DNA of 64,000 nt. Source: Saprospiraceae bacterium (lineage in GTDB: Bacteria; Bacteroidota; Bacteroidia; Chitinophagales; Saprospiraceae). This document shows, one piece after another, positions 41,666 through 60,796 of the stretch (positions within the stretch are counted from its first letter, which is position 1; each line of letters begins with the position of its first letter). The notes beneath the pieces were generated by a model, which made no database searches, had not been told where the DNA came from, and saw nothing but the letters and a program-made list of their open reading frames with translations. The position numbers and the translations under genes are program-made. The stretch covers positions 101,282 through 165,281 of the forward strand of contig JALHQW010000012.1 in NCBI GenBank assembly GCA_022841745.1, read 5' to 3'.

Positions 41666-41673
41666 TATCAGGG

Positions 41674-41746
41674 AGCGGAAAATGGGATTCGAACCCACGG
41701 CCCTCAGCTTGGGAAGCTGATGCTCTACCAACTGAGCTACTTCCGC
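41674..41746 (-). tRNA. tRNA-Gly (anticodon CCC)
   Basis: The minus strand folds as a full cloverleaf: acceptor GCGGAAG with TTTCCGC, D-arm GCTC/GAGC, anticodon arm TCAGC-TTCCCAA-GCTGA, and T-arm GTGGG-TTCGAAT-CCCAT. The loop gives anticodon CCC, reading GGG. No CCA is encoded. It marks the junction between the chromosome-like part and the mobile region. It is not a UGA reader. Confidence 0.95.
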
Positions 41747-42856: not shown

Positions 42857-44580
42857 GGCTCGTCAATGAAAAGTCCAAAAGGAGGTTTGCCGTCTTTGGG
42901 TTTTTTTGGGTTTTCAGTGGAAGGGGAGTTCTGGGATTCTGAGGATTGACCATTGCCCTTCCACTCCTCCATCGGCTTGTAATAATGGGCGACCTGATAG
43001 GCATCCAATGCCTTCTCCTCTTCTTTGTTCAGATAATACTCCCCTGGGTTATCGAGCAGGAAGCTCGGTGACTTGAACTTCATCACTCCCCTGTTCCGGG
43101 GTTTCAGGAAAAATTCATAATCGCTAAGGGTAGCACCGGTTGGGAGTTTAATCACCTCTTGAATGCTGTCAATATTATCGTCGCCCCCTCCGGCAATTTT
43201 TACTGCTGTGTTTTTTATCACCGCTTTGGTCTGTTTCTCGAACTGTTCAGTGTACTGGTTGGCAAGAATGAGGTGTAGACCAAAACCCCTGAGTTGAACC
43301 AGCATGAATTCGAGGCTTCCCGTGCAAAAGTTCTGCGCCTCGTCAATTATGCAGAAAGTGTGGAAGTGTCCGTTTTTCTTTCTTTTCCTGACGATGCTCT
43401 TGATGCTGGCGACAAGGAACTTTCCAAAGGCAACCTGACTCATATCCCCCAATCCCGACAAGTTGAAAATAATGACCTTCCCGTTGTTCAATGCTGCCTC
43501 CAAGTCAAAGGTTTCCTTTCCCCCCAATAGGTTTCTCATGACAGGAGAATTGTCCACTACCCTGCTCGTCCTGCTCAACAAAGCATCCCTTGTCTTGCTG
43601 CCGGGTTTCAAATAATAGTCGTCGAAAATGGTGTCAAATTTTTGCGCCTCCTTGAAAAGCTCGGCATCGCAATTCAACAGATTCAACAAATCCAACATGG
43701 TCGAACCATCTCTCCTAAGCAGGAAGTACACGCACTTTTCCATTAGGTTGACCATGTTTTCGGACAACTCCCCTCCTTCCTTGTCCAAGATTTCTTCCAT
43801 TGCCAGGATAATCTGTTCTGCTGTGAAATTGATGTTCTTGAGCGATTTGTCGGCTATGGCAAAGGGGTTGAACGTCGGGGTAAAGCCCGGTTCGAGATAG
43901 GGGTCTATGTAAATGACCCTTTCATGGTCTGAGTTCATGTAAAACCGTTTGGCATTTTCTGCCAAGCTGCCGTGGGGGTCAATCACCACCATGCTGTATT
44001 GCGGGAACTTGTTCTGCAAGCCAAACAGCAGGGATTCCAACAATACGGACTTTCCCTCTCCTGTCGGGGCAACACAGTACAAGTGCATGAACAACTTGCT
44101 GATAGGAATAGTGGCGGTTGGACGCAAAATCTCCCTGATGTAGCGGTTCAACACTTTCCCAAAGCCATGTACTTGAAGGATTTTGTAGTAATCGTCTTCG
44201 TTCAATCCGTAATGGAAGACAACATCAGCCCTCTGTTTCTCGGTATTAATCCCACCCTTGTTCCTGTTCAATTGGTTGAATACAGGATAGAATGGGAACT
44301 GCTCAGGCATAATGTGCTGGTTGAACAAGGCTGAATATTCATCATAGGTGAACCCCCTCCATTTCATTACCTCTTCGGTAATAAAGGTTTTTTGACCGTT
44401 CAATTCCATGTCCAAGGCAACGATTTTGTCCAACCGTTGGCACCAGACATCCATGAACCGCATGAACACCTCCGGCTCAACTTCGACCAGTTCGCCAATG
44501 GGTATGGACTCCTCGCCTGAGTTCAGGCAAAAGAGTTGCTCGACCTCGGCAGGTCGGATTATCTTCTTGAAGAATTCCAT
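42853..44580 (-). CDS. HerA/VirD4-like coupling ATPase
   Basis: 575 residues with an N-terminal domain and a RecA-like motor: Walker A in CVAPTGEGKSVLLES (about residue 170), Walker B in FCIIDEAQNF (about 412), and a sensor-like LHLILANQYTEQF. This fits TraG/TraD/VirD4-type coupling proteins or HerA-like translocases of integrative and plasmid elements. No relaxase or T4SS channel genes follow in the window, so transfer would need helpers. Its TGA stop overlaps the next ATG, showing that TGA terminates here. Confidence 0.82.
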   Translation of the reverse strand: MEFFKKIIRPAEVEQLFCLNSGEESIPIGELVEVEPEVFMRFMDVWCQRLDKIVALDMELNGQKTFITEEVMKWRGFTYDEYSALFNQHIMPEQFPFYPVFNQLNRNKGGINTEKQRADVVFHYGLNEDDYYKILQVHGFGKVLNRYIREILRPTATIPISKLFMHLYCVAPTGEGKSVLLESLLFGLQNKFPQYSMVVIDPHGSLAENAKRFYMNSDHERVIYIDPYLEPGFTPTFNPFAIADKSLKNINFTAEQIILAMEEILDKEGGELSENMVNLMEKCVYFLLRRDGSTMLDLLNLLNCDAELFKEAQKFDTIFDDYYLKPGSKTRDALLSRTSRVVDNSPVMRNLLGGKETFDLEAALNNGKVIIFNLSGLGDMSQVAFGKFLVASIKSIVRKRKKNGHFHTFCIIDEAQNFCTGSLEFMLVQLRGFGLHLILANQYTEQFEKQTKAVIKNTAVKIAGGGDDNIDSIQEVIKLPTGATLSDYEFFLKPRNRGVMKFKSPSFLLDNPGEYYLNKEEEKALDAYQVAHYYKPMEEWKGNGQSSESQNSPSTENPKKPKDGKPPFGLFIDEP

Positions 44581-44595
44581 GATGTTAGGATTGAA

Positions 44596-46044
44596 TTATT
44601 TTGATTGACGGCGAACAGCCGCTGCCTCCTGCTGTATTAGACTCGCCCTGTTCGATGTGAACTTCAAATCCTCTTGGGTAATGTGCAATTGATGCTTGAG
44701 GTCGTCCACGACCTGACCCCGTGAAATCTTCTCCTGAATCCTTTCTTCGATGCGCTTCTGCTCGGAAAGCAGGTTCTGCATCTTCGTTTGCTCAAGTGTA
44801 GCCCGTTGCTGGTATTCGTCCCGTAGGATGTTGATACCCATTTTTTCGTAGGCAATATCCTTCAAAGCCAAGTATTGGTCTTGGGAAATCCTTTCGAGTT
44901 GGAGTTTGGAACTCCCGACCTCGTTGGCGAATTCCTTCTTGTGCAATGACATCTGCTGCAAGTTCAAATCGAGGTCTTTTGAAATGGACTGAATGGCTAC
45001 CTGGTGTTTCTGATAGGCAATGTTCGCCCGGTTCAACACGTCCTCTGCCCGGATGGAATACCGCTCTGCCTCGTTCTTGATTTGCATGACCTCGACACCG
45101 AAGGATTTGACCTGGTTGTGCAGCGTCTGCACCTTGTCCACGATGCGGATTTGCTGCTGGTCGAGCCTGACTATTTCCCGCCCGAACTGCACTTTTATAT
45201 CAGAAAACTGCTTGGAAACATCCACCTGCATCCTTCCTATGGTTTCCCGAATGTTGTTCAGTTCATTGAAAAAATTCAATTCCAATTGGGAGAATTTTTC
45301 AACCACATAGGATTTGAACGTCATCATTTCCTTTTCAACGAGCAAGAATGTCTCCGCTACTTTCGTAAAGCCAGTCCTTACCTCCTCCCTAAGTTGAGCG
45401 CTCTCATCTTTTGCTTCGTATCGGTATTCAAGGATTCTCTTGTCCTGCTCAAATAGATGGGATGCGACCTCGTGCTTTATTTCCCGGAGTTGAAGCTCCT
45501 CTTCCTTTTTTTTGACGACTTGTTGGAACTGCTGTTTCTCGAACTCGTCGGAGCGGGCATAGCCAGTGACCTCGGAATTGCCAAAAATATCAGTCAGCAA
45601 ATTCTCCTTGTTCTTTCGGTCAATCTGCACCAAAGCCTGTTGAATGTCTTGTTTGTGTTCTGTCTTCAGATTTTCGTTTTCCTTATGAAGGTCGGAAACC
45701 TCTGATTTCAGGTTGTTCAATTGTTCAATGATTTCCTGCTGAGGTGCTGGGGGAAGACCAGCATTACTCTCTTCGTTATAAGGCAAATCACTTTTTGGTG
45801 CTTGTTTCTTCCATTCATGCACCTTGAAAGTGCGTTCCAGGAAAACAGTGACATTGCCTGTCTTTTTGTCATACTCAAGCAGACGGTAAATTATGTATCC
45901 AAACCCTGCAATGGCTGCTACTATTATTAGTGTATGCAGAAGTTGAATGATTGCTTGAGCCACAAAACCAAAAACGATAAGTCCTATGACCAAAATGCAC
46001 CCCTTTTCGGAGTTCGCATCACCGGAGTTGTTGTAGGTATTCAT
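44596..46044 (-). CDS. Membrane-anchored coiled-coil protein
   Basis: 482 residues. Two adjacent hydrophobic segments near the N-terminus (CILVIGLIVFGFVAQAI; LHTLIIVAAIAGFGYIIYRLL) are followed by about 400 residues of heptad-rich coiled coil (for example LEERIQEKISRG-type and EQLNNLKSEVSDLHKENENL). No enzyme motif. It sits 15 bases upstream of the ATPase gene and 14 downstream of the zinc-ribbon gene, so it is part of the same module and could scaffold or tether the ATPase. Confidence 0.75.
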   Translation of the reverse strand: MNTYNNSGDANSEKGCILVIGLIVFGFVAQAIIQLLHTLIIVAAIAGFGYIIYRLLEYDKKTGNVTVFLERTFKVHEWKKQAPKSDLPYNEESNAGLPPAPQQEIIEQLNNLKSEVSDLHKENENLKTEHKQDIQQALVQIDRKNKENLLTDIFGNSEVTGYARSDEFEKQQFQQVVKKKEEELQLREIKHEVASHLFEQDKRILEYRYEAKDESAQLREEVRTGFTKVAETFLLVEKEMMTFKSYVVEKFSQLELNFFNELNNIRETIGRMQVDVSKQFSDIKVQFGREIVRLDQQQIRIVDKVQTLHNQVKSFGVEVMQIKNEAERYSIRAEDVLNRANIAYQKHQVAIQSISKDLDLNLQQMSLHKKEFANEVGSSKLQLERISQDQYLALKDIAYEKMGINILRDEYQQRATLEQTKMQNLLSEQKRIEERIQEKISRGQVVDDLKHQLHITQEDLKFTSNRASLIQQEAAAVRRQSK

Positions 46045-46918: not shown

Positions 46919-48883
46919 CTACCTTATTCTGAACTTTTTGGTGATTTCTGCTATGCTGTTGGCGAGTTGCTGAAAGATTGATTCCACCTTCAATGAGTCG
47001 GACAGATTTTTTATTGGTTGGTTTGCAAGGAGCGACATCACTTGTTTTTTCTTTTCCCTTGAAATAGTAACCTCCTCGCCATTTTTCATCATAAGCCTTG
47101 ACTTGAGGGGGAGCACACCACTTACCTCCAATTTGTTGATAATGGTGGAATGATTGACCCGGACGAAAAAGTGTGGAGAAAGCCGTTGAACCTCTTTTTG
47201 GTAATTGCCTTGTTCCAAATCTTTCAAGGAATAGTATCCTTCGATTTCTACCCCCGTTTTTAGACAAAAGAGAACCTTGTTTTCCTCTGGCTTCTTTTTT
47301 ACCATGACCAAGTCAGCGAGTTTTATCTGGCGACCGTGTTTCAAATCCATTGTCTGGTTTGTCAATACAAGTGCCTGTTCCAAATCATCATTACGTTTCA
47401 GAGTTCTGTTCCATTTTGGTAAGTAGAAAAAAAGCAACGTAGCAAAAGCTATCACGACAATGATAAGCCCTCTGGCTGACTGCATCCAACTCTTTTTTTC
47501 GACCTTTTCCTTTTCGATTGTTTCGTATTTTTTAAAGATTTTATTGGCAGATTCCGTAATATTGGCAAAGCTCAACCCGTTGCGAAGTTCTTCCTTTTTT
47601 TGGTGGGCTTCCACACATCGTCTTGAAGCATTTACCATCCCTTCGGTATCCTCCAAAGCCTCCAATACCTTAATCTGAATGGAATAATGCTCCACCATTA
47701 CAGTGATAACCTCGAACAATTCAAGTGGTTCTATTGCTGAAAACCTTTGAATTATGGTGTCCGTATCTTCCAAGAAACCGTTTGCAACAGCAAACTCTCC
47801 CTGCTCGAAACTTGCCGTAGCCAAAAGCGAATTTCTCCTGATGTATGGCACCCAATCAAGGATGGTATCAGGGATGCTGGATAAGACAAACATTGCACTA
47901 TCCGGTTGTTGCAATGCCAAGTATAACTCCCCCAACGACAAGGCTGGCGCAATCCTCAATTCTTTATCATTCAAGGAATCCGTCAAATCAAGCATCTGAC
48001 TTTGAAAAGACACTGCGTTTCTCAGTAATTCAATGCTGTCCCTTTCTTCAAGTGCCTGTAAACTCAACAACCCTCCTACTGCCAAGAGGGGTTCAATATC
48101 GGTGGTGGTATCAGTGCCAACGCTTACTTCTGGAAAGTTATCCTTTAGATGGAAGTTACCAACCAAAGCCATTTTCAGGTTATATTTTGAGGCAAATGAG
48201 AAAAAGTCGCAAAACATGGGCAATACCTCTTTTCCGTAATCCTCCAAGGCATCTTCATCCACGTCCTTCAAGTTATCAATAAAAGCAGAAACATAGCTGT
48301 ACCAATCCTCCCTCCTGATGTGAAATCTCATAAGTTTTGCGGCGCCCTCGATAGTGCCCTGGTCGTCACCACATCTTTTTGAAAGTTCTATTGCACGTTC
48401 CAACTCCAGCTTCGCTTGGACATAGGATGCTCTTTTCTCATGGGTCTTTGCCAACAGGTAAAGGGATTTTCTACCTGATTTCAAATCCTTCCCAAAACCC
48501 AAGAATCCATGTGAACCACCCTCGAGTGATTTCCGGGAATAGAACTTGATGGAATCAAGGGCTTGGACACCCTCTTTTTCATAATAGCACCTCGCAATCC
48601 AGTATGCTGATTCGGAATGTTTTGCAGGACTTTTCCCACCAGATGCGATTTCCTTGCACTGCTTGAAGTAGATGATTGCGGAATCAAGATGATGATGGTG
48701 ATAAAATGATTGGGCTTGCTCGAATACTGGTGCTACCTTTTTAACGGTCTGGACATGACGAACATAGCCCCAAATATTGTAGCCAAGTAGGAGGGGTACA
48801 ATTAACAGCAAAGCAATGAAAACTACCTTGGCGAACCTGTTCGTCAAAAACTTTTTTAGGTACGATTTTTCCTGGTACAACAT
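46919..48883 (-). CDS. TPR membrane protein with C-terminal LytTR domain
   Basis: 654 residues. A membrane segment near the start (VVFIALLLIVPLLLGYNIWGYV), a TPR-rich region (residues ~45-440), a second membrane segment (GLIIVVIAFATLLFFYL, about 465), and a LytTR DNA-binding domain at the end (RLSPHFFVRVNHSTIINKLEV). A known Bacteroidota layout of one-protein signalling across the membrane, with TPR sensor outside and LytTR inside. It ends in TAG. Its targets are unknown; it may control the neighbouring mobile module. Confidence 0.85.
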   Translation of the reverse strand: MLYQEKSYLKKFLTNRFAKVVFIALLLIVPLLLGYNIWGYVRHVQTVKKVAPVFEQAQSFYHHHHLDSAIIYFKQCKEIASGGKSPAKHSESAYWIARCYYEKEGVQALDSIKFYSRKSLEGGSHGFLGFGKDLKSGRKSLYLLAKTHEKRASYVQAKLELERAIELSKRCGDDQGTIEGAAKLMRFHIRREDWYSYVSAFIDNLKDVDEDALEDYGKEVLPMFCDFFSFASKYNLKMALVGNFHLKDNFPEVSVGTDTTTDIEPLLAVGGLLSLQALEERDSIELLRNAVSFQSQMLDLTDSLNDKELRIAPALSLGELYLALQQPDSAMFVLSSIPDTILDWVPYIRRNSLLATASFEQGEFAVANGFLEDTDTIIQRFSAIEPLELFEVITVMVEHYSIQIKVLEALEDTEGMVNASRRCVEAHQKKEELRNGLSFANITESANKIFKKYETIEKEKVEKKSWMQSARGLIIVVIAFATLLFFYLPKWNRTLKRNDDLEQALVLTNQTMDLKHGRQIKLADLVMVKKKPEENKVLFCLKTGVEIEGYYSLKDLEQGNYQKEVQRLSPHFFVRVNHSTIINKLEVSGVLPLKSRLMMKNGEEVTISREKKKQVMSLLANQPIKNLSDSLKVESIFQQLANSIAEITKKFRIR

Positions 48884-49295: not shown

Positions 49296-49320
49296 CAGAA
49301 AAGAAGGGCTAAAAGCCCTC
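49296..49320 (-). terminator. Terminator hairpin overlapping the distal TAG of the DUF2958 gene
   Basis: Minus strand GAGGGC-TTTTA-GCCCTTC-TTTTCT. The TAG at 49311-49309 lies in the loop, so the terminator is matched to the extended reading frame and not to the internal TGA 106 bases upstream. Confidence 0.65.
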
Positions 49321-49605
49321 CAATTCTGAAAATCTGCACGGACGGAAGAACTTGTCTCTTTCGATTCCAAGCCCAAGCCTGTCCCTGAAACTTTGCAACT
49401 CTTCCAGACTAAAAGTTCACCGCTCGTTTTCGATGCCGATGACAAACCCGAAAAAAACCCCATCTTCTTCATTGAACTCCGTCGGATACCGTGTTCGGAC
49501 AGAGGCTGCATGAAAGAATTTGCAGACGATAATCGGGTCGGCTACATCTGACTGGTCGCCAATCCTGCGGAAATCCTTTAGAATCTCCTGAGTAAGCAAT
49601 TTCAT
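49309..49605 (-). CDS. DUF2958 family protein with one in-frame TGA
   Basis: 98 codons from ATG 49605 (MKLLTQEILKDF) to TAG. Before the TGA (49419-49417): DPIIVCKFF...YPTEFNEEDGVFFGFVIGIENER. After it, in the same frame: TFSLEELQSFRDRLGLGIERD, which is the standard second half of DUF2958, a small protein common on plasmids and conjugative elements. In the family as I recall it, the junction reads E-W-G-Y/T-FSL, so TGA falls on the Gly. The protein has Arg where relatives have Trp (TRYPTEF vs TWYATEY). A TACCTTTG promoter element is upstream at 49660-49653. Confidence 0.7.
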
Positions 49606-49652
49606 GGTGGTGTGGAAAAGAACTAAAAGTGCGGTCTTCCAAACCCGCATTC

Positions 49653-49660
49653 CAAAGGTA
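49653..49660 (-). promoter_or_regulatory. Bacteroidota-type -7 element before the DUF2958 gene
   Basis: Minus strand GTACCTTTGGAATG contains TACCTTTG, a match to the TAnnTTTG consensus, about 48 bases upstream of ATG 49605. An almost identical block precedes the gene at 50196. No gene is seen in 49606-49841. Confidence 0.55.
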
Positions 49661-49841
49661 CAAACTGCAATAAAAAATGTCTTGAAAAATCGAAAGGGAA
49701 GAATAGGCTTTGGATGTTTACTTTCCGCCATGACCATGAAAAGAAAGTACATTCTCCTATCACTCACCGATTGAAAGGTTTACCCGCAAAAAATGATTGG
49801 AAAGTTGAAGGGCCACACATGGAAGGTGGTACTGCTGAAGT

Positions 49842-49870
49842 AAAAACAGGAGGAGAGGGGAACCTCCTGT
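49842..49870 (-). terminator. Rho-independent terminator
   Basis: Minus strand ACAGGAGG-N9-CCTCCTGT followed by TTTTT, starting 5 bases after the TAA of the gene with three in-frame TGA. Confidence 0.85.
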
Positions 49871-49875
49871 TAGGA

Positions 49876-50196
49876 TTAGAAGATTTCCCTCTGCTTTACA
49901 GAATCCCGGATAGCTTGTTGGTTGTATTGCTTTTGCAACGCACGGGCTTCCTCAAGGCTATCCGTCGAAGTACCGATGTCCACGACAACTTGACTTTGCA
50001 GATTCGTTCGTCAGCCAATAGTCAGGTTGTTGTTGGTCATTCAATAGAACACCGCTTGAAAAGCCAATAAAGGAATAGACCGAATTTCGTTGTTGGTAAA
50101 GGCAACTACATACCTTTTCATGCGCTTTCCTTTGAGAAGCGCCGTAAATCAAGAAAGGTCAACACTTTCCAGAATACGTTTGATAATGTCCTCCAT
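49876..50196 (-). CDS. Small protein with three in-frame TGA codons
   Basis: 106 codons from ATG 50196 (MEDIIKRILESVDLS) to TAA 49878-49876, broken only by TGA at codons 16 (50151-50149), 52 (50043-50041) and 62 (50013-50011). The frame reads MKRYVVAFTNNEIRSIPLLAFQ... and TNLQSQVVVDIGTSTDSLEE..., which look like real protein. It has a TAnnTTTG promoter element 55 bases upstream and a strong terminator 5 bases after the TAA. I do not recognise the family. With no UGA reading, the longest product would be 35 residues. Confidence 0.5.
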
Positions 50197-50250
50197 GGTG
50201 TTTAAAAAGAAGATAAAAGTCTGTGCTTCCCCTCTTGTTTAAGCACATTT

Positions 50251-50258
50251 CAAAGGTA
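50251..50258 (-). promoter_or_regulatory. Bacteroidota-type -7 element before the three-TGA gene
   Basis: Minus strand GTACCTTTGAAATG contains TACCTTTG; a TTGG lies 18 bases further upstream, near -33 spacing. It repeats the block in front of the DUF2958 gene. Confidence 0.55.
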
Positions 50259-50296
50259 CAAAAAGGCATGGATTTCCAAAATTCCATGCCTTTTAA
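50259..50296. terminator. Bidirectional terminator-like hairpin
   Basis: AAAAGGCATGGA (50261-50272) pairs perfectly with TCCATGCCTTTT (50283-50294). It overlaps the -33 region of the promoter at 50258-50251. Confidence 0.7.
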
Positions 50297-50399
50297 AATT
50301 GTAAAAACCGATTTAAAAACTTGAAAAGGGGGATGGAAAGAATAATAAGTACCTGCTGTGCAGCATTGAAAATAGGGTAAGTTTTTGGAAGCAGGTCTT

Positions 50400-50535
50400 T
50401 TGAGAATGCCCCTGGGGGCGAAACTCCCCCGAATCTGAAAACGACCGCCGATGCGTGACGTCGTAATGTCCGGGTGGGAACTACCTAAAGTGCCAACAAG
50501 GAAACAGCCGGGAGGAATCCTTCCGGCTCCCCTTT
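50400..50535. other. GC-rich structured intergenic segment, possible RNA
   Basis: Three local helices stand out in a GC-rich island: GGGGG/CCCCC (50414-50430), ACGAC-CGC/GCG-GTCGT (50441-50464) and AGCCGG/CCGGCT (50506-50528), with an A-rich joining segment between. No convincing reading frame uses it. It could be a plasmid regulatory RNA or a ribozyme relic; I do not recognise the family. Confidence 0.4.
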
Positions 50536-50588
50536 GACAAACCTCAGTGTCTTCATTAGAATAGAGTTGTTTTATCTCACCAGCCTCA

Positions 50589-51008
50589 ATGACGCACGGA
50601 CCATCAGAAAACCCCTCCCCAAGCGGCAATGGACAAAATCCCAATCCCAGCTTGGGCAAAAGTTTCGATGTCGAAAATGTATTCGAGGAATTTTACCAAT
50701 GGTTTCAGGAAGCTTTTCAGGGAAAAGCGTTTACAAAGCCAGAGATGGAAGCCCTCTACAAAGTGTTTTTGGAGGCAAAGTATTATAGGCACGAAACTGA
50801 CAGTTTACTCCAACTGATAAAGCAGCTTGAAGAAAAAATGGATACGGGCATCCTCCTTGCCGAAGGCTCTGCCAGCCTTAGGAGTGCAACAGAAACCCAG
50901 GCAAACACAATTTTCATCCAAAATCAACTTATTGAAAACTTGAAAGTGCAGGTACAAACCCTGCTTGACGATAAGGTGTCAAGAGACTTTCAAAGACCTT
51001 TAAATTAA
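50589..51008 (+). CDS. Small coiled-coil protein of unknown function
   Basis: 139 residues ending in TAA: a low-complexity Asn/Pro/Gly start, then helices (VFEEFYQWFQEAF; LLQLIKQLEEKMD; ENLKVQVQTLLDDK). No in-frame TGA. It precedes the HTH-coiled-coil gene on the same strand by 74 bases; the two may act together. Family unknown. Confidence 0.55.
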   Translation: MTHGPSENPSPSGNGQNPNPSLGKSFDVENVFEEFYQWFQEAFQGKAFTKPEMEALYKVFLEAKYYRHETDSLLQLIKQLEEKMDTGILLAEGSASLRSATETQANTIFIQNQLIENLKVQVQTLLDDKVSRDFQRPLN

Positions 51009-51082
51009 GGTTGTAATTCCCCTACACATCAATACTTTCAAGCCGTTTTCAACTTGAAAATTTTTCAACCTATTGTAAAACC

Positions 51083-51634
51083 ATGCATTACGTTCTCCCA
51101 AGGGACATTTCCCAGAAGTTTCAAATCTCTTTACAAACGGTTTACAACTACCTTTCAAAGTTTGAGGGTAAAATCCGCACCAAGAAAGAGTTTTGAAAGA
51201 CTTTTGTTGAAATGGAAGACTTTACAACCTTTTTTCAAGCGGCTTTACACCCGTTTGAAAGCCAGCTTGAAATACCGCAGCCAACAGTGGACTCTAAAGA
51301 AGTTGAAAACTTGAAAGAGAATGTAACAAAGGTTGAAACCGAATACCAACTGGCGCTCCAAAGGACGGAAGACCTCGAAAAGTACAACCTCAACCTTCAG
51401 GAACAGCTATCGAGGTATGGTATCATGCTCACAGAGGAGAAAGCGGAAAAAAAGGACATCCTGACCAAATACGAAACGGTACAAACCGAGTACCTTCAAA
51501 AAGTGGAATCCCTGTTCCGTGAAAAGTCCCTGTTTGAAAAGAGATACCACCTTGTGCTTGGCTTCCTTATCGTCTTACTGATACTCCTCGCCTGGTTGCT
51601 CCTTGTGAAAATTGATATTATGAAGAACGTATAA
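51083..51634 (+). CDS. HTH coiled-coil membrane protein, HTH reachable only through an in-frame TGA
   Basis: 183 codons from ATG 51083 to TAA. Codons 1-37 encode a complete helix-turn-helix with wing (ISQKFQISLQTVYNYLSKFEGKIRTKKEF), then TGA at 51194-51196, then KTFVEMEDFTTFF, a coiled coil (~65-150) and a C-terminal membrane helix (VLGFLIVLLILLAWLLLVKI). The TGA sits at the turn of a beta hairpin (KKEF-x-KTFV), where glycine is the natural residue. An internal ATG at 51212 could still make the HTH-less form. The HTH suggests DNA binding tied to the membrane, perhaps for plasmid partition. Confidence 0.6.
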
Positions 51635-51684
51635 CCAAAATTTTGAGGAAGGACATGATTTTCAAAACCCAATTTTTGAACGGT

Positions 51685-51717
51685 TAAAAAACGATGAGAA
51701 ACCCCAGTTCTCATCGT
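51685..51717 (-). terminator. Terminator of the rep gene
   Basis: Minus strand ACGATGAGAA-N7-TTCTCATCGT followed by TTTTTA, 39 bases after the rep TAA and between convergent genes. Confidence 0.85.
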
Positions 51718-51755
51718 GCCAAATTGCGTGAATTTCAACGTCAGGGGTTACTACC

Positions 51756-53075
51756 CTATATTTTCCCGTCCGTTGTATCGTACCCTTCACTATTCAAGAA
51801 TTCTTCAAATTCGTAAGCGGTTTTCGGCAAATGTTTCTCCGCAAGAAAGTTCCTCCGCTGCAACTGGATAATGGAAGAATCAAAACCTTTGGTTTCCAAC
51901 ATCTTTTTAAAGAGTGGATTGGTTTGAACCGTAGTCAGGAACTCCTCTTTCAAGGCATTTAAAACCTCCCCGTCCAACGATTTTAAAAGGTTTTCAACCG
52001 CTGTGACCTTCTGCCTTTCAAACTGTTTCAGGAGTTCAATCCTCTTTTTTTCATGGGCTGTCTCTTGCTGCGTCGCTATGACTTTCGATTGCTTTTTGTC
52101 CTTTTTGAGCCTGTCGTGCTCGGTTTCAATCGGTCTGAAGTCCACCTCGAATGCCTTCATCAAATAAGCAGGGACGTTGCGGATTTCCTTCCCACTTGCC
52201 AACTCCCCTTCCACGAACCTGATATTCGCAAGGATATAGTCCTCGTCGTGCTTCTCCAATAATTCTTTGGCGATGCCATCCCTGATGCCCATTGCATGTA
52301 GTTTCTGCATGATTTCCTCGTTCATCTTCTCCTCGCTCTCGAATTTCGTGATGCCGCTTACCCTGAAAACGATGGCGGTGATTTTCCTACCCTCGTTTTC
52401 GAGGTCGTACACCACTTTCAAGTCGGTCTTTTCATTGATTTCTTCGATGGCAACATCCAAAATCCTTTTTTTGAGCATGGTGAAAATCTTGTACTGTCAC
52501 TCCTCTACGCCCACCAATTTCCTAAAAGCCTCCATTCCGATGCGGATTCTACCGATATTCTGATAATCTTTCAGCATCTCGTACAGTGCCAAACTATGCT
52601 TGCTGTTCAAATCCCTTCGGATGAACATGTTCAGTTTCACGTACATCGTTGGTCTTTTGATGGCCTCCAATATCGGGGTTGGGAACTCGAAGGTCAACCT
52701 TGCGGTATTTCCCCTTTTCTGGCCCACGATTTTCACAAAGGAAAGAAAGGGAAATGCGCCCCGTTCGTACTTCTCCTTGCCCAAAATGTTATACTCAATG
52801 GCAAGGGACACCAAAGCCTTGAGAGCTTGTTTCAATTCAGTATTGTCGTTGCGGGAAATACCGGAAAGCTTCTTGACCATTCAGAGGTCAACGCTGAAAG
52901 TATTGTTTTCTGGATTGCGTTTCAATTGGTCTTTGGCTATCCGAATCAGTGAGTTGATGGCTTTCCTCTGCTGCAAGGTCGTCACGTTGTTCATCTGAAC
53001 CAAGCTACTGCTCTTCTTGATTTCAAGTACGCCGTCGTTCTCCTCGAATAGCGAAATCTGTTGCTGAGTGTCCAT
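51756..53075 (-). CDS. Rep_3 family plasmid replication initiator with two in-frame TGA
   Basis: 439 codons from ATG 53075 to TAA. Winged-helix domain 1 (NTFSVDL-x-MVKKLSGISRNDNTELKQALKAL...EYNILG) and domain 2 (FRKLVGVEE-x-QYKIFTMLKKRILDVAIEEINEKTDL...GRKITAIVFRV) are the standard halves of Rep_3/RepB initiators, which bind iterons to open the origin. TGA occurs at codons 65 (52883-52881) and 193 (52499-52497); no frameshift or other stop. Family alignment recalled from memory puts Gly or a small polar residue at both sites (E-G-Q-Y). There is no TGG Trp codon in the whole gene. A charged helical C-terminus follows the Rep fold. Confidence 0.75.
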
Positions 53076-53159
53076 TTTAGCGGGTAGAAACTAAAATAAC
53101 AAAACTTGATATGGTGTTATGTTATGTTTCAAATTCTAAAAATCAAGAGTATTTTTCAA

Positions 53160-53320
53160 CTCCCAAAATGTTATGATACCCCTTCATGGAAATACCCATT
53201 TTGTTATGATAGTGGAGTAAAGAAATACCCACAGTGTTATGATGAAATACCATTTCTGTTATAGTAGAAGAGTGGGCATATACCCAATCTGTTATGATAA
53301 ATATCCAATCTGTTATGATA
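53160..53320 (+). repeat. Iteron array (plasmid-type replication origin)
   Basis: Six direct repeats of about 22 bases, consensus ATACCCAWTYTGTTATGATA, lie 85 bases upstream of the rep start. TGTTATRRTR cores begin at 53169, 53202, 53235, 53257, 53290 and 53311, spacings of 33, 33, 22, 33 and 21 bases, so all face one side of the helix. A seventh copy in reverse lies at 54819-54840. Rep-binding iterons like these define the oriV of Rep_3 plasmids. Confidence 0.92.
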
Positions 53321-53458
53321 GGGCATCGGGATGATAGGTGAGAACTGGCATCCCGGACGGCTAAACACTTAAACGTTATATTAAACAAATACAAACACTA
53401 CGGGGGAAACAGGGGAGTGGTGTTGTTCCCAAATTTTAATTTTCAAAAAAAGAGGGTC

Positions 53459-53489
53459 AAAAAAGTAGAGCCGATTTGTGGTCGGCTCT
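53459..53489 (-). terminator. Rho-independent terminator
   Basis: Minus strand AGAGCCGA-N7-TCGGCTCT then ACTTTTTT, 13 bases after the TAA of the gene at 53744-53502. Confidence 0.85.
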
Positions 53490-53501
53490 ATCGGCAGGAT
53501 G

Positions 53502-53744
53502 TTACCTGATTTGTTTCTGTTCCACTACGATTTCAAAAGCGTAAGTGCCAAAATCGTCAATGTACTTGATGTGCGTGTCGGTTTTCAGCCTAAAGTCTGT
53601 TTCACGAAGGTCACGCTCGCTTTGCTCCTCAAACAGCAGAGCTTTTGAATGCGCAATTGCAGCTTCCCTTGTATGGAACAAAAAGGCTTCGGCGTTCAAG
53701 CCACCAAGTTGTCACCGTGAAAATGTCACCACCCGGATTGTCAT
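53502..53744 (-). CDS. Small protein with one in-frame TGA
   Basis: 80 codons from ATG 53744 (MTIRVVTFSR) with TGA at codon 11 (53714-53712), then QLGGLNAEAFLFHTREAAIAHSKALL...YIDDFGTYAFEIVV to TAA. The part after TGA has an alternating strand-helix-strand pattern and no other good start (only TTG at 53699). Family not recognised. Terminator matched to the TAA. Confidence 0.5.
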
Positions 53745-53749
53745 GTTGT

Positions 53750-53957
53750 AAAAGAACAGGATAAAAATGCAGTCAACCTGCGGTTTCATAACGTTTTTCG
53801 GAGCAGGGGTGTTGCCTAACGGAAAAAGTCTATCCAATCGCAATTAGCCACTTTACTAACCCAGTTTTTCAACTTTTCCGATTGTCAAAAATCGGTATCA
53901 AATAAACTACCGAGTCAATAGGAAAACATAGTTTTCGCTTGAAAGCTAAGGACAAAG
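53750..53957. other. Intergenic, no gene supported
   Basis: AT-rich sequence between the small TGA gene and the SprT terminator. A 37-codon frame tolerant of TGA exists (53929-53816) but is too short to support. Confidence 0.3.
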
Positions 53958-53962
53958 AAAAA

Positions 53963-53979
53963 CTCCCCGATTCGGGGAG
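53963..53979 (-). terminator. Terminator of the SprT-like gene
   Basis: CTCCCCG-loop-CGGGGAG followed by TTTTT on the minus strand, 17 bases after the TGA stop of the gene. Confidence 0.85.
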
Positions 53980-53996
53980 ACAATTAGTGATTTGCA

Positions 53997-54722
53997 TCAC
54001 TGGACTTCCTCAAACATTTCACCGCATTCGTCGCACTTGATTTTGAGAGCAGGTCTTCCCCACACGTTCACTTTGCAGCCGGGGCATGAATACTTGGTTT
54101 TGTTCCGGCTTGGTGGTCGTAGCCGTTTCAGGCGTGATTTGCGCTCGTCGCCTTCCTCGCCATCGTCCGTGCCGGACGTGCTTGCGCCCGTAAGTAGGCG
54201 CTTCATCATTTCGCCCTCCAAAGAGGTAAAAGGTAGGGTGTACTGTTTCGGCATTTTCTCAAAAGCCTGTTGGTACTTTCCCCCTTCTTCGATGTAGTGC
54301 GTCATGCGCTGACCTGTTTCCTTGCCGCCCGGTTTCCCCGTGTCGGAAGGTATCAAGCCGATTGTTCGCATTTTTGCAGCCCACTCTTTGTTGTGATAAC
54401 CACTGCGAGACGGTTCTCCAAATTCCCATTGCCACAGGTGCGCCATTTCATGCACAAGGGTTGAGAAGATTTCGATTGGCGTCCGGTAAAGCGTTGTAGG
54501 GGTGAGGGAAATTTCGTGCGTTCCGAAACTTTCCTCGTCAACTCGTTTCCAGCGTTCAGGTGCCATGAATCCATGCGAACCTGAAAGCCTGGAAAAATTC
54601 AGGATACAACCGGGGAGCTTGTTGTCGAACAGCTTCTGGTTGTAGAACTGGTAAGCGCCGTTCAGGGAGTTGAACTGCTCCTGTGTCGGCGTCGGCAACG
54701 GTGGTTTTTGTTTTTTACTCAT
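53997..54722 (-). CDS. SprT-like zinc metalloprotein
   Basis: 241 residues. The SprT-type zinc site is LVHEMAHLWQWEFG, with H-N-KEWAAKM downstream supplying the further ligand region. A C-terminal zinc ribbon (YSCPGCKVNVWGRPALKIKCDECGEMF) completes the protein. SprT-like proteins of this length are frequent on plasmids and ICEs; the relative Spartan cleaves DNA-protein crosslinks, but the role of these mobile versions is not known. It ends with TGA, and the terminator 17 bases later suggests that this TGA is a real stop. That is evidence against a wholesale code change. Confidence 0.82.
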   Translation of the reverse strand: MSKKQKPPLPTPTQEQFNSLNGAYQFYNQKLFDNKLPGCILNFSRLSGSHGFMAPERWKRVDEESFGTHEISLTPTTLYRTPIEIFSTLVHEMAHLWQWEFGEPSRSGYHNKEWAAKMRTIGLIPSDTGKPGGKETGQRMTHYIEEGGKYQQAFEKMPKQYTLPFTSLEGEMMKRLLTGASTSGTDDGEEGDERKSRLKRLRPPSRNKTKYSCPGCKVNVWGRPALKIKCDECGEMFEEVQ

Positions 54723-54818
54723 GTGAACAGAATTTTTTGTTGCGTACCCTACAATTCCTATTCACTGAGCATCGAATTTCAAGAGATTTAAAAGCTTCCT
54801 TCAAAACCTTGTATGCCC

Positions 54819-54840
54819 TATCATAACAAAATGGGTATTT
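54819..54840 (-). repeat. Seventh iteron, inverted
   Basis: The minus strand is identical to the iteron at 53190-53211 over about 21 bases. It lies about 1.5 kb away, upstream of the SprT-like gene start (54722), and could be an operator for that gene or a second Rep-binding site used in handcuffing. Confidence 0.85.
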
Positions 54841-54957
54841 ATTTTACAAACAATATACACACGTTTTTAAAGTTTTAAACGCTTTGAAACCCAACAAAAA
54901 GACTTGATAATCAATTGATTGCGACTATAAGGAATGTAATTTTACCAGCATCGCCGG

Positions 54958-55344
54958 ATGAAACATTTTGACAAGTGGAACAAGCTGAAAAAGACCATCC
55001 ACCAAAACCGCCCGGAATTTTTCGTAAACGAAAGAGAAGTCCGGTATGCCCACTTGGGAATAAACGTGGGGTTTGAGGAGGATGGAAAAGGCGGCGATTT
55101 TAAAAGACCCGTTCTTATTTTGAAAAAGATTTGAAACGTCTTTGCCGTACTCCCAATGACCACGAAGGGGAAGGATACCAAATTCTACTACCGCCTTCCT
55201 GACCACTATTTCGGAAAGACTTCGAGGATAATCTTGTCGCAGTGCAGGGTAGTGGACAAGAACAGGTTCATCGAAAGCATCGGGACGCTATCGGAAGGGG
55301 ATTTCAAGGACGTAAAAGAAAAACTTAAAGCGCTGATGCTTTAA
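54958..55344 (+). CDS. MazF/PemK-like toxin family protein with one in-frame TGA
   Basis: 128 codons from ATG 54958 to TAA. First part: FDKWNKLKKTI...EFFVNEREVRYAHLGINVGFEEDGKG-x-FKRPVLILKKI; TGA at 55132-55134; second part: NVFAVLPMTTKGKDTKFYYRL...SRIILSQCRVVDKNRFIESIGTLS. This is a complete MazF/PemK-like fold, the family of type II toxin mRNA endoribonucleases. TGA falls in the hairpin turn between the RPVLILKK and VFAVLP strands, a Gly/Asn position. No antitoxin gene is next to it, so it may be a solitary relative. A strong terminator is built into its last codons. Confidence 0.7.
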
Positions 55345-55540: not shown

Positions 55541-58234
55541 ATGCAAAGCACCAAAATTACCCTCTCACAACTTGAAAGTTTCCTGCTGAAAGCGGCTGAT
55601 ATTTTGAGGGGGAGCATGGACGCCTCGGAGTTTAAAGAGTACATTTTCGGGATGCTGTTCCTGAAAAGGATGAGCGACCAGTTCGCTACCCGGAAGACCT
55701 ACCTTATCAAGGAAAGTTATAGCCACTTGACCGGGGAGGCTTTGGACATGGTAATGGAATCACCCACTACTTTCGGTGAGACCTACTATGTTCCGGCAGA
55801 AGCAAGATGGGAGAAAATCAGGTACTTCCACCACAACGCAGGGGAGCAACTCGACCAAGCTCTTGCCGCTTTGGAGAATGCCAATGACTCTTTAAGAGGT
55901 GTGCTGCATGACAATATTGGGTTCAACAAAACGAAGGGCAATAAACGTGTCATTCCTGACAACAAAATCAAAGACCTGATTGACCACTTCGACAAAATCA
56001 AGCTCACTAACGACAATTTCGAGTTTCCCGACCTGCTCGGTGCGGCTTACGAATACCTTATCAAGTTCTTTGCGGACAGCGCCGGAAAGAAAGGAGGAGA
56101 GTTCTATACTCCAGCGCAAGTAGTACGTCTGTTGGTGCAACTGCTGAAACCACGTGCAGGAATGAGTATTTACGACCCAACTGCTGGTTCGGGCGGTATG
56201 CTGATTCAATCTGCACAGTTCGTAGAGGAGCAAGGACAGGATGCCCGCAACCTCACTTTGGCAGGTCAGGACAACAACGGTACGGTCTGGTCTATCTGCA
56301 AGATGAACATGATTTTGCACAACGTCCTCGATGCCGACATTCGCCTCGGCGATACCGTCGAAGACCCGCAGCATACGGAAGGTGGTTTCTTGAAAAAGTT
56401 TGACCGCATACTTGCGAACCCACCATTTTCCCAGAATTATTCAAAAGCCAATATTAAATTCCCTACACGTTTCCCCTACGGGTCTGCGCCCGAATCAGGC
56501 AAAAAAGGCGACCTGATGTTCGTGCAACACATGATAGCCTGCCTGAAAGAAGACGGTAAAATGGCTTGCATCATCCCGCACGGCGTCCTGTTTCGTGGGG
56601 GAGCGGAAAAGATTATCCGTGAAGGCATCGTAAAGGACAACCTACTCGAAGCCATCATCGCCTTGCCGCCGTCTCTGTTTTATGGAACTGGCATTCCTGC
56701 CTGTGTCATTGTCATCAACAAAAACAAGCCGGACGAACTGCGCCACAAAATCCTGTTCGTAAACGCTGATGCCGAATACGGGGAGGGCAAAGCCCAAAAC
56801 TTCCTTCGCCCGGAAGATATTGAAAAGATTGACACTGCCTTCTCTACAAAAGTGCCAATACCTAAATACTCCCGCCTCGTTGACCTGAAAGAAATACAGG
56901 ATAACGAATTTAACCTGAACATCCGCCGCTACGTGGACAACACGCCAGACCCAGAACCGGAAGACGTAAGGGCGCATCTGCTCGGTGGTGTACCGAAAAG
57001 CGAAGTGGCTGCACAAGAACCTTTCTACTACAAGTTCGGGATGAAAAAGACCGTGTTCTTTCAAGATAGGGACGCCAACTATTTTGATTTCAAAACTGAC
57101 CTGACCGACCCCAAAGGGGCAGGGAAATCCGGCATCAAGGAACTGATAGAAACGCATGACGGGGTGAAGCAAACCCTCGCCCGTTTCCGCAAGGAAACAA
57201 ACGACTGGTGGATGGAAGCCAAGAATGATTTCACCCGCTTGGAAACGGACAACGACCTGCCGAAAATCAGGGCGGAATTGCTGGCTGGATTTCAAAACAG
57301 GTTGCTGCCGCTCGAACTGTTCGATAAGTTTCAGGTATCGGGCATCTTCGTAAACTGGTGGCAGACCATCAATTACGACTTGAAAACCATTTCCTCCCAC
57401 GGTTGGAGCGTGAACCTTATCCCTGACGAGTACATCAAAAAAGCATTTTTCCAAAAGGAAATGGATGAACTCGATGCGCTGGAAACCAAGATTTCTGACG
57501 AGGAAAACACCCTACAGGAAGCAATAGAGGAAGGGGAAGTAGAACCAGAAACCGACGACGATGGCAACGAAAAAGCACTCACCACAAAATGGGTAGTGGA
57601 ACAACTGCTGGCGGCTGCACACGACCTGCTCGGCAACTTCGTTGATAATCCCAGCAAGCCGAAAGCGACCGATGACGCTAAAACGAACCTGCCAAAACAA
57701 GTCCCAGAAAGCTCCAAAATCGAGATTCTGAAATACATGGCGCTGGCGCAACGCATCAGCAAAACGGAGGCTCGTATCAAAGCCTTGAAAAAGACGCTCA
57801 AAGAAAAACAGGCTCGCCTCGAAGACCTCGTGGACGCCAAGAAATACGGACTTGACGGCTTCATCGCCCACTTGAACGACCTTATCATTTTGCGTGAAGC
57901 GGAAAAAGTTGCAGCAGAAAAGGATGCCGAAAAAGCAAAAATCCAGAAACGCATAGACGAATACAACGAGAAGAAAGGCAAAGTAGCGGAATTGGTGGCT
58001 GCCATCGGGCTACCCATCACCAACGAGGAAGCCCGTGACCTTATCTTACAAAAACACCATGACCTGATGCAGGAACAACTTGAACGCTACCTGAACCGTG
58101 AAAAGCGTGAACTGGTGGCATTGGTGGATAAACTTTGGGATAAATATACTTTAAGTAGAAATGACTTGGAAAAGGAACTTGGAACGGTACTTTCCAAGTT
58201 GAATGATTTTTTGACTGCTTTAAATTATCAATAG
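55541..58234 (+). CDS. hsdM: Type I restriction-modification DNA methyltransferase subunit HsdM
   Basis: 897 residues. N-terminal helical HsdM domain ([35 protein letters not shown]), then the N6-adenine methyltransferase core with the AdoMet motif [10 protein letters not shown] (about residue 210) and catalytic NPPF (about 292). The C-terminal ~350 residues are an extra charged coiled-coil region ([21 protein letters not shown]), longer than typical HsdM (about 500). Ends TAG, 2 bases before hsdS. An upstream TTACCTTTA resembles a -7 element (55508-55520). No in-frame TGA. Confidence 0.95.
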
Positions 58235-58236
58235 GT

Positions 58237-59514
58237 ATGGGAGAGTGGATTGATGTAAAAATAGGTGAGTTATTTACGACTACCTTTCCTGGCGAATGGG
58301 GGAAAGAACCTACCAATTCTGTTCAAATTCCTGTAATTGGGACAAAGAATTTTAAGAATAATGGAAAAATTAAATTTGATAATATTTCATACAGATTTAT
58401 TCCATCTTCAAAACTTGAAAAAGTAAGAGCAATCAAAGGTGATATTCTAATTGAAAAATCTGGCGGCAGTCCTACTCAACCAGCAGGAAGGGTAGTTTTT
58501 ATTGAGGATGACTTTAACGGAACAAGCTCTAATTTTGTTGAAGTTTGTAAAGTAAATCCAAAGCATTTTAATGTCTTTGTTTTCTACCTTCTTTTTTATG
58601 CCTATCAAACTGGTAAGGTTTTAAAATACCAACAGCAAACCACTGGTATCATCAACTTTAAGCTAAGGGAGTATAAAAAAGATGAGTTACTAAAAATTCC
58701 TAAATCTCTCTCCGAACAAACCACCATCGCCACCATCCTCACCACAATAAACCAAGCCATTGAAAAAACGGAAAAACTCATCGTAAAATATGAGCGCATC
58801 AAAATAGGGCTGATGCAAGACTTGCTCACTCGTGGCATTGACGAGCAGGGGAGAATTCGCAGTGAGGATACGCACGAGTTTAAAGATAGCCCGTTGGGAA
58901 GAATCCCGATAGAGTGGGAAGTTGCGCCATTTGATTCATTTCTCGAATTGAAACAGTATGGATTGTCTGTCTCTGCTTCTGAAAATGGAGTTCCACTTTT
59001 GAGAATGAACAATTTGAAGAACGGTGAACTCGAAATATCAGATTTGAAGTTTTGCCCCGCACCCGTTAGTGAACAAGTCATCTTAAATGATTTGGATTTG
59101 CTTTTCAACCGCACGAACAGCATTGATTATGTGGGAAGAACTGGGATTTTCAGGCAGCAAAAAATTCCATTCACTTTTGCATCATACTTGGTTAGGCTTG
59201 TTCCCAAAAAGAACCTAATGCCGGAGTATTTGAACTATTGGATGAATTTTCCAAAGAATCATGTTTGGATTAAAACCATTGCTACACAAGCAGTCCACCA
59301 GGCGAACATTAATCCAACCAATCTTGGAAAACTATCCGTTTACGTTCCAAAGGTTGAGGAACAAGAAAGGATTATTTCCATCATTGATGAATCGAAAAAA
59401 GGAATTGTTGCAATGCAAAAGGAGTTGTCCAAGCTGTATTTGCAAAAAACAGGATTGATGCAAGACCTCCTCACTGGCAAAGTCAGTGTGGATGGTTTGA
59501 ATGAAAACAACTAA
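58237..59514 (+). CDS. hsdS: Type I restriction-modification specificity subunit HsdS
   Basis: 425 residues with two target-recognition domains separated by conserved helical spacers (LSEQTTIATILTTINQAIEKTEKLIVKYERIKIGLMQDLLTRG and EEQERIISIIDESKKGIVAMQKELSKLYLQKTGLMQDLLTGK). The first TRD is AT-rich, as is common for swapped TRDs. The two spacers are similar to each other, a classic HsdS feature. It determines which bipartite DNA site the complex reads. Confidence 0.93.
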   Translation: MGEWIDVKIGELFTTTFPGEWGKEPTNSVQIPVIGTKNFKNNGKIKFDNISYRFIPSSKLEKVRAIKGDILIEKSGGSPTQPAGRVVFIEDDFNGTSSNFVEVCKVNPKHFNVFVFYLLFYAYQTGKVLKYQQQTTGIINFKLREYKKDELLKIPKSLSEQTTIATILTTINQAIEKTEKLIVKYERIKIGLMQDLLTRGIDEQGRIRSEDTHEFKDSPLGRIPIEWEVAPFDSFLELKQYGLSVSASENGVPLLRMNNLKNGELEISDLKFCPAPVSEQVILNDLDLLFNRTNSIDYVGRTGIFRQQKIPFTFASYLVRLVPKKNLMPEYLNYWMNFPKNHVWIKTIATQAVHQANINPTNLGKLSVYVPKVEEQERIISIIDESKKGIVAMQKELSKLYLQKTGLMQDLLTGKVSVDGLNENN

Positions 59515-59525
59515 ATCCTTAAACA

Positions 59526-60773
59526 ATGATTGATTGGCTTCTAAATCTTTTTAACTGGAAAAAAAATCCAAAGATGGATACCGTTTCATTCCTTATTGGT
59601 TCTGGCTTTTCAAAAGCTGATGGACTTCCACTTGTGGGTGAGATTAATGAGAGAATGAGAAGAATTAATGAAGATGAAATCATCATTCATTCAGAGGGGA
59701 CAGCATTTTTTCTAAATGGACAAACAAATGAAAACGAATGGTCAAGAAAAGCAGAGAGATTGTTCGTCCAAGAATTTTTGAAATTTTACTCCAATGAAGT
59801 TATTGATGGAGAAGGTAATTTTCATTATGAAGATTTCTATGATTATTACTCAGAATATTTAAGAACTGAAGATAACGAGTATATTGATGAGTTTTGTGAA
59901 ACCTTTAGAAATGAGAATGATAATGAATACAATCCAATTGCAGACAATTACAACCTTGTATCACAATTTCACAATACTTTTAACCAACTTCTAAGCAATT
60001 TTCTTCAAAGAGCAAAATATTACGAGAACGTCTCTCATCTGAACTACTTTAAATACGATGACTTTATCGGGTTCTTGAATCACCTAATTGAAAAAAATCA
60101 AGTCAAAGTACACACATTGAACCACGATTTGCTATTTGAAAGAGTAGCGTCAGTTCCACCTTTGTGGCAAGAATTTTCAGATGGCTATGAGGAATTAGGT
60201 TCTCCCTATTATTCAGAGGTTAATGTTAATCAAACAATTAACAAAAGGTACAGAGTAAGGCTAAAATATTTCCAAAATAGATTTGACAAAAAAATCTGTC
60301 TTTACAAACTACATGGTAGCATTGATACTTACCAATTCAATATTGCCGACCAACATCGGGATTTAACAAGAGTAAAGTCTGACTATGGAGTTGAACCTCG
60401 GTTCGTAAAGGAGGTACAAGATGAAACAGGAAGATTCAGTTACATTAAAGGATGGCAAAATAATTACCCTGACTTTCTTTCAGGTACTTCAACAAAAGTA
60501 CTTAGCTACGGGAATGAATATTATGAATTGCTGTTCAAACATTTTGCAGAAAATCTAAAAAAATCAAAACTTCTTATCGTAATCGGCTATGGATTTGGTG
60601 ATTCAGGAATCAACGATTATTTGAAGAAATACTTTTTGGACAGAGGGGGCAAAATGGTTGTCATTATTCCAAAGAAACCAGATACCGAATTGATAAACTA
60701 CCCAAATACGGTAATTCTTGAAAAGAAGATGGAACAAGTGTCGCTTCAAGAATACATGAGTTTGCTGAACTAA
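59526..60773 (+). CDS. SIR2-like protein inserted in the hsd operon
   Basis: 415 residues. An N-terminal dinucleotide-binding motif FLIGSGFSKADGLP, a TLNHDLLFE block with the Asn at about residue 199, and YKLHGSID with the His at about 263 match the catalytic Asn and His of SIR2-type NADases. A late LLIVIGYGFGDSGIND motif completes the fold. Proteins of this kind drain NAD+ in several anti-phage systems. It lies 11 bases after hsdS and 23 before hsdR, on the same strand and clearly AT-rich compared with hsdM and hsdR, so it was added later. Confidence 0.82.
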   Translation: MIDWLLNLFNWKKNPKMDTVSFLIGSGFSKADGLPLVGEINERMRRINEDEIIIHSEGTAFFLNGQTNENEWSRKAERLFVQEFLKFYSNEVIDGEGNFHYEDFYDYYSEYLRTEDNEYIDEFCETFRNENDNEYNPIADNYNLVSQFHNTFNQLLSNFLQRAKYYENVSHLNYFKYDDFIGFLNHLIEKNQVKVHTLNHDLLFERVASVPPLWQEFSDGYEELGSPYYSEVNVNQTINKRYRVRLKYFQNRFDKKICLYKLHGSIDTYQFNIADQHRDLTRVKSDYGVEPRFVKEVQDETGRFSYIKGWQNNYPDFLSGTSTKVLSYGNEYYELLFKHFAENLKKSKLLIVIGYGFGDSGINDYLKKYFLDRGGKMVVIIPKKPDTELINYPNTVILEKKMEQVSLQEYMSLLN

Positions 60774-60796
60774 AAGCTATTATCCTATTATCAATC

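Follow-up and report, generated by a model that had tools for sequence, protein, structure and literature searches.

A module with in-frame TGA codons in a composite integrative element

The window analysed here is a 64,000-nucleotide stretch of contig JALHQW010000012.1 from the draft genome (8.4 Mb) of a Saprospiraceae bacterium (GCA_022841745.1). Our subject is a mobile element that sits in the final 22 kb of the 165-kb contig and, in this copy, runs off the contig end. Within it lies a module around a Rep_3-type replication initiator gene (rep) in which six genes, on both strands, carry nine in-frame TGA codons and no TAA, TAG or frameshift within their frames (Table 1), as a preliminary description of the window had stated and as our translations reproduce. 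The ends of the frames were set at TAA or TAG, and the zero count of internal TAA and TAG thus leans on homology continuing past the TGA codons. Beyond what a single window can tell, the module is one member of a conserved recoded family, found in several genomes and housed within a composite integrative element, and its genes, judged on their sequences, are almost certainly truly recoded, with UGA standing for glycine.

With X placed at the TGA codons, the rep product matches Rep3_N at 51.0 bits and Rep3_C at 60.2 bits (cut-offs 22.4 and 21.1), and its membership of Rep_3 is supported by the six iterons that adjoin the gene. Searched in the same way, the DUF2958 and PemK/MazF-like products exceed their Pfam cut-offs, as the standard-coded SprT-like protein does its own, and the 106-codon gene with its three TGA codons could be located. 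When the nine TGA columns are set against relatives, glycine is borne out at five, each facing glycine in at least one relative: codon 16 of the 106-codon gene, codons 65 and 193 of rep, codon 59 of the PemK/MazF-like gene and codon 38 of the helix-turn-helix (HTH)/coiled-coil gene. Two columns meet nothing but TGA among the relatives compared (codon 63 of the DUF2958 gene and codon 62 of the 106-codon gene), one faces alanine (codon 52 of the 106-codon gene), and for the 80-codon gene, which holds the remaining column, no relative was found in the plasmid collection.

TGA is also a true stop in the immediate neighbourhood, which the preliminary description had recognised for the ATPase gene and, as an apparent case, for the SprT-like gene. 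It ends both of these as well as the replication-relaxation-like gene, and each of the three stops has an aligned TGA in the related element of genome G393 (G-numbers denote genomes and L-numbers the loci examined, G000 being the window's own genome). By eye, a hairpin and a run of T follow the TGA stop of the SprT-like gene. With three genes ending at TGA, the element as a whole departs from code 25, in which UGA is never a stop. Since these genes keep UGA as a conserved stop, two codes are in use within a single composite integrative element. The host G000 uses TGA as a normal stop, at the end of 10 of the 20 long frames in two sampled stretches.

The full extent of such an element can be seen in G058, where it is complete: it measures 29 kb (4523-33512), is flanked by 43-bp direct repeats of the 3' half of a tRNA-Met gene (4523-4565 and 33470-33512), and has a Phage_integrase gene (37.5 bits, cut-off 27.1) adjoining the second repeat. 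The tRNA-gene direct repeats together with the integrase mark it as an integrative element. In-frame TGA is absent from the integrases of G058 and G155.

Two further parts of the window deserve mention. The space between the 106-codon and 139-codon genes (50373-50545) is G+C-rich and shows inverted repeats by eye, with no match in Rfam or in G393. To the right of the module (55541-63886) lie the Type I restriction-modification genes HsdM, HsdS and HsdR with a SIR2-like gene between them, all free of in-frame TGA.

Table 1. Features of the element and its left flank, in window coordinates
Feature	Position	Strand	Observations
tRNA-Gly (CCC)	41672-41746	-	adjoins left end of element; sequence common to the G393 element begins at 41948
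Replication-relaxation-like gene, standard code	42029-42856	-	PF13814, 25.2 bits, just below the 25.3 cut-off; TGA stop
HerA/TraG-like ATPase, standard code	42853-44580	-	PF01935, 31 bits; TGA stop
Coiled-coil membrane protein, standard code	44596-46044	-	no Pfam match, described by eye; the G393 element has a homologue
TPR-LytTR protein, standard code	46919-48883	-	PF04397
DUF2958 gene, recoded	49309-49605	-	1 TGA, codon 63 (49417-49419); likewise TGA in G393
106-codon gene, recoded	49876-50196	-	3 TGA, codons 16, 52 and 62 (50149-50151, 50041-50043, 50011-50013)
139-codon gene within module	50589-51008	+	no in-frame TGA; TAA stop
HTH/coiled-coil gene, recoded	51083-51634	+	1 TGA, codon 38 (51194-51196); TGA in 5/5 aligned loci
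Rep_3-type initiator (rep), recoded	51756-53075	-	2 TGA, codons 65 (52881-52883) and 193 (52497-52499)
Iterons, six 23-nt copies	53157-53321	.	spacing start-to-start 21-33 nt
80-codon gene	53502-53744	-	1 TGA, codon 11 (53712-53714)
SprT-like gene within module	53997-54722	-	TGA stop (53997-53999), same place in G393
PemK/MazF-like gene, recoded	54958-55344	+	1 TGA, codon 59 (55132-55134), where G393 and G029 have Gly

A conserved recoded family under selection

Recoded homologues were seen in G009, G058, G393, G289, G416, G029 and G155. When the window initiator was searched against 148 related genomes, 11 gave matches, among them initiators with internal TGA in G009 (46% identity, three TGA), G058 (42%, five) and G029 (29%, three). 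With an initiator profile, 398 genomes of the family yielded matches in 18, nine of which have TGA, and the top seven matches all do. The window's own genome holds initiators of the same Pfam family at four other places, none with a stop, and TGA is found there in the window copy only. In a class-wide sample of 395 genomes, eight gave initiator matches, with TGA solely in the window copy. Seven of these genomes lie outside the family, and none of their initiators contains TGA, two matches (both in G799) having TAA or TAG; five of these out-of-family initiators are 24-28% identical to that of the window, often without glycine at the TGA columns. The plasmid collection contains 2,405 records matching the initiator, with identities of at most 33% among the 30 listed, and four scans of the viral collection found no relatives.

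The HTH/coiled-coil gene that adjoins rep, named by eye and with weak Pfam matches, is recoded in the seven loci having one (the window, G009, G058, G393, G289, G155 and G029). Its codon-38 TGA stays TGA in all five well-aligning loci, and may be kept as such for regulation; in 45 metagenome relatives the same column holds W (15), R (6), G (5), S (2), K (1) or a gap (16). G393 has the 106-codon, DUF2958 and PemK-like genes again, with TGA at other glycine columns. In G155 the recoded genes include RadC and ArdC, both named by Pfam, and RelB-like, RelE-like and pilin-like genes named by eye, while G416 contributes a recoded DUF1016 nuclease.

Altogether, 27 recoded genes at eight loci contain 99 TGA among 6,328 codons with no TAA or TAG inside, and they stop at TAA (20 genes) or TAG (7 genes); a naive model of single-base decay gives 2e-80 for 99 TGA without TAA or TAG. 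Excluded from this count are a rep fragment of G416 and the initiator copy of G205 (L250, G205:C12 218500-222500), which has five TAA beside four TGA and appears decayed. Differences between the window and G393 at codon positions 1 and 2 stand in a ratio to those at position 3 of 0.32-0.55 for five recoded genes, compared with 0.31-0.56 for four standard ones. The long shared blocks are 65-70% identical in nucleotide sequence in recoded and standard parts alike, and the gene order is the same. The two parts being collinear and about equally diverged, the composite is old.

That these are decayed genes or assembly errors, as the use of TGA as a stop by the host might suggest, is scarcely credible: recoded relatives in separate assemblies agree, the 99 TGA stand without a single TAA or TAG, divergence is biased to the third position, and the copy that truly decayed, in G205, looks different. 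A CpG lesion turning CGA into TGA, which the preliminary description had entertained, finds no support either, and neither does its suggestion of stop-restart translation.

UGA at glycine positions

For seven initiators with 31 TGA columns between them, the summed scores are +25 bits for glycine, +7 for lysine and -7 for tryptophan, with all other residues below -28; the initiators of G029 and G155 fit poorly into the alignment and depress the glycine score in this test. Leaving W out of the columns raises glycine to +27.5 and lysine to +9.6, and the mean glycine share, calculated in the same way, is 0.34 at the initiator TGA columns versus 0.039 across all columns. Five Pfam domains of recoded genes point in the same direction. 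With ten residues tried, YhcG_C scores 202.1 bits for glycine, 199.3 for the next best residue and 196.1 for tryptophan, and DUF1016_N scores 139.6, 135.8 and 132.9, respectively. With five residues tried, the corresponding values are 119.8, 117.4 and 113.1 for RadC, 104.7, 104.0 and 97.1 for MPTase-PolyVal, and 94.2, 88.1 and 84.1 for ArdcN. When five recoded genes of the window are compared with those of G393, their 19 TGA columns have GGN opposite in nine cases, TGA in both in three and other codons in seven. The glycine fit of the TGA columns thus appears strong, if not perfect at each site.

A reading of UGA as tryptophan or another residue is very improbable. TGG codons are absent from, or few in, several of these genes, and lysine comes second at the initiator columns, but tryptophan falls below glycine in all five Pfam domains tried and at the rep columns. 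The W seen at glycine columns of metagenome relatives is expected where a gene caller translates TGA as tryptophan. Glycine, the first choice of the preliminary description, is therefore strongly supported, as it outscores the other residues tried at the TGA columns, while its alternatives of tryptophan, a CpG lesion and stop-restart translation are not. With UGA placed where relatives often have glycine, complete translation of the genes would consequently require a cell in which UGA means glycine.

Search for a UGA-reading tRNA

ARAGORN and Rfam revealed no transfer RNA (tRNA) with anticodon UCA in the window, in line with the preliminary description. The same tools were applied to the other loci, and RF00005 was run across three draft genomes, G000 (51 hits), G155 (35) and G393 (52). 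ARAGORN was run on the stretch around every hit from G000 and G393, and weak array units and odd calls were also inspected by eye; for G155, 31 of the 35 hits were read by ARAGORN or by eye, the four weakest (at most 19.3 bits) being left unread. A UCA anticodon occurs in none of the 51 hits of G000, nor in the 31 read in G155 or the 52 of G393, gaps remaining in all three drafts. The complete G058 element (4523-33512) has no UCA or suppressor tRNA. In a custom tRNA scan two real tRNAs scored 21.7 and the top UCA candidate 17.0, inside the range of the control triplets. A UCA pattern scan matched 101 places in eight hosts, of which 41 were read, and 57 of 398 genomes, of which 30 loci and 11 stretches were read; the places read yielded two genes called UCA by ARAGORN, in G352 and G448 (see below). 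The assemblies being drafts, a UCA tRNA could still reside on a plasmid or phage lost from them.

Several tRNA-like structures were met along the way. Tandem arrays in G000 (C42 19570-20211, C37 29167-29904 and C21 3252-3575; L054, L053 and L055) adjoin tRNA-Lys, tRNA-Val and tRNA-Ala, respectively. Their units are made of tRNA 3' halves plus a terminator, the anticodon arm bearing a CCCGA..TCGGG palindrome, and similar units occur in G393:C3 (L293) and G448:C265 (L207). Some loops of the G000 arrays contain TTCA, and the units were judged by eye to be non-decoders on account of their broken acceptor stems, the palindrome and their varied loops. Excision of the G058 element was considered as the birth of a UCA tRNA and, by eye, creates none. 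Dense tRNA arrays called by ARAGORN, with 20 genes at L137 4999-8938 (G029:C37) and 12 at L283 7061-8319 (G393:C34), look phage-borne by eye and include no UGA reader.

Where the recoded genes may be decoded

The recoding itself is close to certain; the uncertain step, which we infer, is the place of decoding. In our best explanation the element shuttles between cells, its recoded genes likely being made in full only in a UGA=Gly cell, probably an Absconditabacteria/Gracilibacteria-type episymbiont of the Saprospiraceae host, and we hold this proposal to be evenly poised between right and wrong. During its stay in Saprospiraceae the element would be chromosomal and would give full products from its standard-coded genes only (replication-relaxation, TraG-like ATPase and integrase). 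In the UGA=Gly cell the recoded set would be translated, including the initiator acting at the iterons, the HTH/coiled-coil protein and the PemK-like toxin, to which relatives would add ArdC, RadC and RelB/RelE-like proteins, and these products would let the element persist there as a plasmid. The code would thereby act as a host-specific expression lock. Taken further, one DNA may hold two programmes, with the standard code serving residence and transfer genes in Saprospiraceae and the UGA=Gly code those for replication, stability and establishment in a parasitic Patescibacteria partner, a tentative idea that we place slightly short of an even chance.

Decoding in an episymbiont is favoured by the lack of a decoder found in the hosts, the pilin of G155, the decaying and stranded copy in G205, and the kinds of genes that are recoded, since initiator, antirestriction and toxin-antitoxin genes serve establishment and stability. 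For the pilin-like protein encoded by a recoded gene of G155, 106 relatives were found, six of them with an informative taxon name: four are Absconditabacteria or Absconditabacterales (two apparently from one genome), one is SR1 and one is 'gcode 4'. Among 398 Saprospiraceae genomes, by contrast, G155 is the only one with the gene. The Pfam match of the protein to T4SS_pilin is weak (10.6 bits), and among the 94 relatives that have the C-terminal motif, 39 show W at conserved glycine sites. Published work, of which we draw here and below on particular passages, gives moderate support to an association of Absconditabacteria with Bacteroidetes (Jaffe et al. 2021, PMC8406219), describes phages presumed to encounter the two codes (Liu et al. 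2023, PMC10746230) and characterises both groups as Shine-Dalgarno-poor (PMC10783764).

A number of observations weigh against decoding in an episymbiont. The pilin link is that of one element, in G155, whose initiator is only distantly related to that of the window. No Absconditabacteria appear among the taxon names of initiator and HTH matches, Absconditabacteria genomes themselves not having been searched; the names are Saprospiraceae, Haliscomenobacter and Desulfoprunum (30% identity) for the initiator, and Bacteroidetes and Saprospiraceae for the HTH gene. The SprT-like and 139-codon genes, though inside the module, are not recoded. The G+C content at third codon positions (GC3) of the recoded genes tracks that of the host (r = 0.80, n = 8), which a long stay in Saprospiraceae would produce, and the recoded genes use CGA and CGG, codons that UGA=Gly bacteria generally avoid. 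Finally, ARAGORN calls UCA genes in two other genomes of the family. The one in G352 (G352:C662, L196 1490-1562) forms four of five anticodon-stem pairs and six of seven acceptor pairs. The unit in G448 (G448:C265, L207) is a tRNA-Pro-like repeat, by eye derived from the adjacent tRNA-Pro, with five anticodon-stem pairs and UCA in a 7-base loop. UCA tRNAs are hence possible in Saprospiraceae.

Some of these points fit another explanation, in which UGA is read as glycine inside Saprospiraceae itself by a suppressor tRNA that is missing from the assemblies, being odd in shape or borne on an unbinned plasmid or phage; perhaps decoding is confined to times when the element is outside the chromosome, in the manner of recoded phages. 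We regard this as possible, if less than probable. It would agree with GC3 following the host, with the confinement of TGA-bearing initiators to this family among the genomes searched, with the like divergence of the window and G393 parts (about 65-70% nucleotide identity in long shared blocks), and with adjacent genes using UGA both as stop and as glycine; the UCA genes called in G352 and G448 speak for it too, the G448 unit being well-formed enough to raise its standing slightly. However, UCA tRNAs are absent from the complete G058 element and were not found in G000, G155 and G393, those of G352 and G448 do not resemble glycine tRNAs by eye, and the profile search of 398 genomes found no recoded initiator in either of the two.

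One-way capture is unlikely. Here, UGA=Gly plasmid modules would have entered Saprospiraceae elements repeatedly and be silent there, intact copies being just young, which would account for the decaying G205 copy, the Absconditabacteria-type pilin-like gene in G155 and the decoder not being found, but not for an old composite whose standard and recoded parts are collinear and about equally diverged between the window and G393, nor for a GC3 that follows the hosts.

Relation to known systems and significance

Code 25 is used by Absconditabacteria/Gracilibacteria and some of their phages (PMC10746230), and the literature drawn on here reports stop-to-glycine recoding from one class of bacteria, along with certain of its phages (PMC13092985, PMC10746230), the class being given as JAEDAM01 in a 2026 survey (PMC13092985). 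As in code 25, UGA lies at glycine positions here and the recoded genes stop at TAA or TAG; unlike code 25, the recoding is confined to one portion of an element, hosted by a phylum with the standard code, next to genes that stop at UGA, and tRNA-Gly(UCA) was not found. The recoded phages of standard-code hosts, crAss-like and others (PMC10879173), likewise present a recoded stop in a mobile genome, but they turn UAG to Gln or UGA to Trp whereas here UGA becomes Gly, and the present element is not recognisably phage and carries no suppressor tRNA in its complete G058 form. Phages compatible with codes 11 and 25, for which encounters with standard as well as UGA=Gly hosts have similarly been proposed, avoid in-frame TGA, whereas this element splits its genes between the codes (Liu et al. 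2023, PMC10746230). With Rep_3 iteron plasmids and tRNA-integrating conjugative elements it shares Rep3 domains, iterons, a TraG-like ATPase and, in G058, an integrase and tRNA-gene repeats; unlike in those systems, its maintenance genes are written in another code. No published account of such a recoded element was found in the one literature library searched.

Selected UGA=Gly genes in standard-code chromosomes imply either that Bacteroidota possess a conditional decoder not yet seen or that DNA passes between host and episymbiont across the code barrier. The finding would put forward a group of candidate hosts for Absconditabacteria-type bacteria and would explain why gene callers truncate these genes. 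It would also turn the genetic code into a regulator of mobile DNA that can be put to the test.

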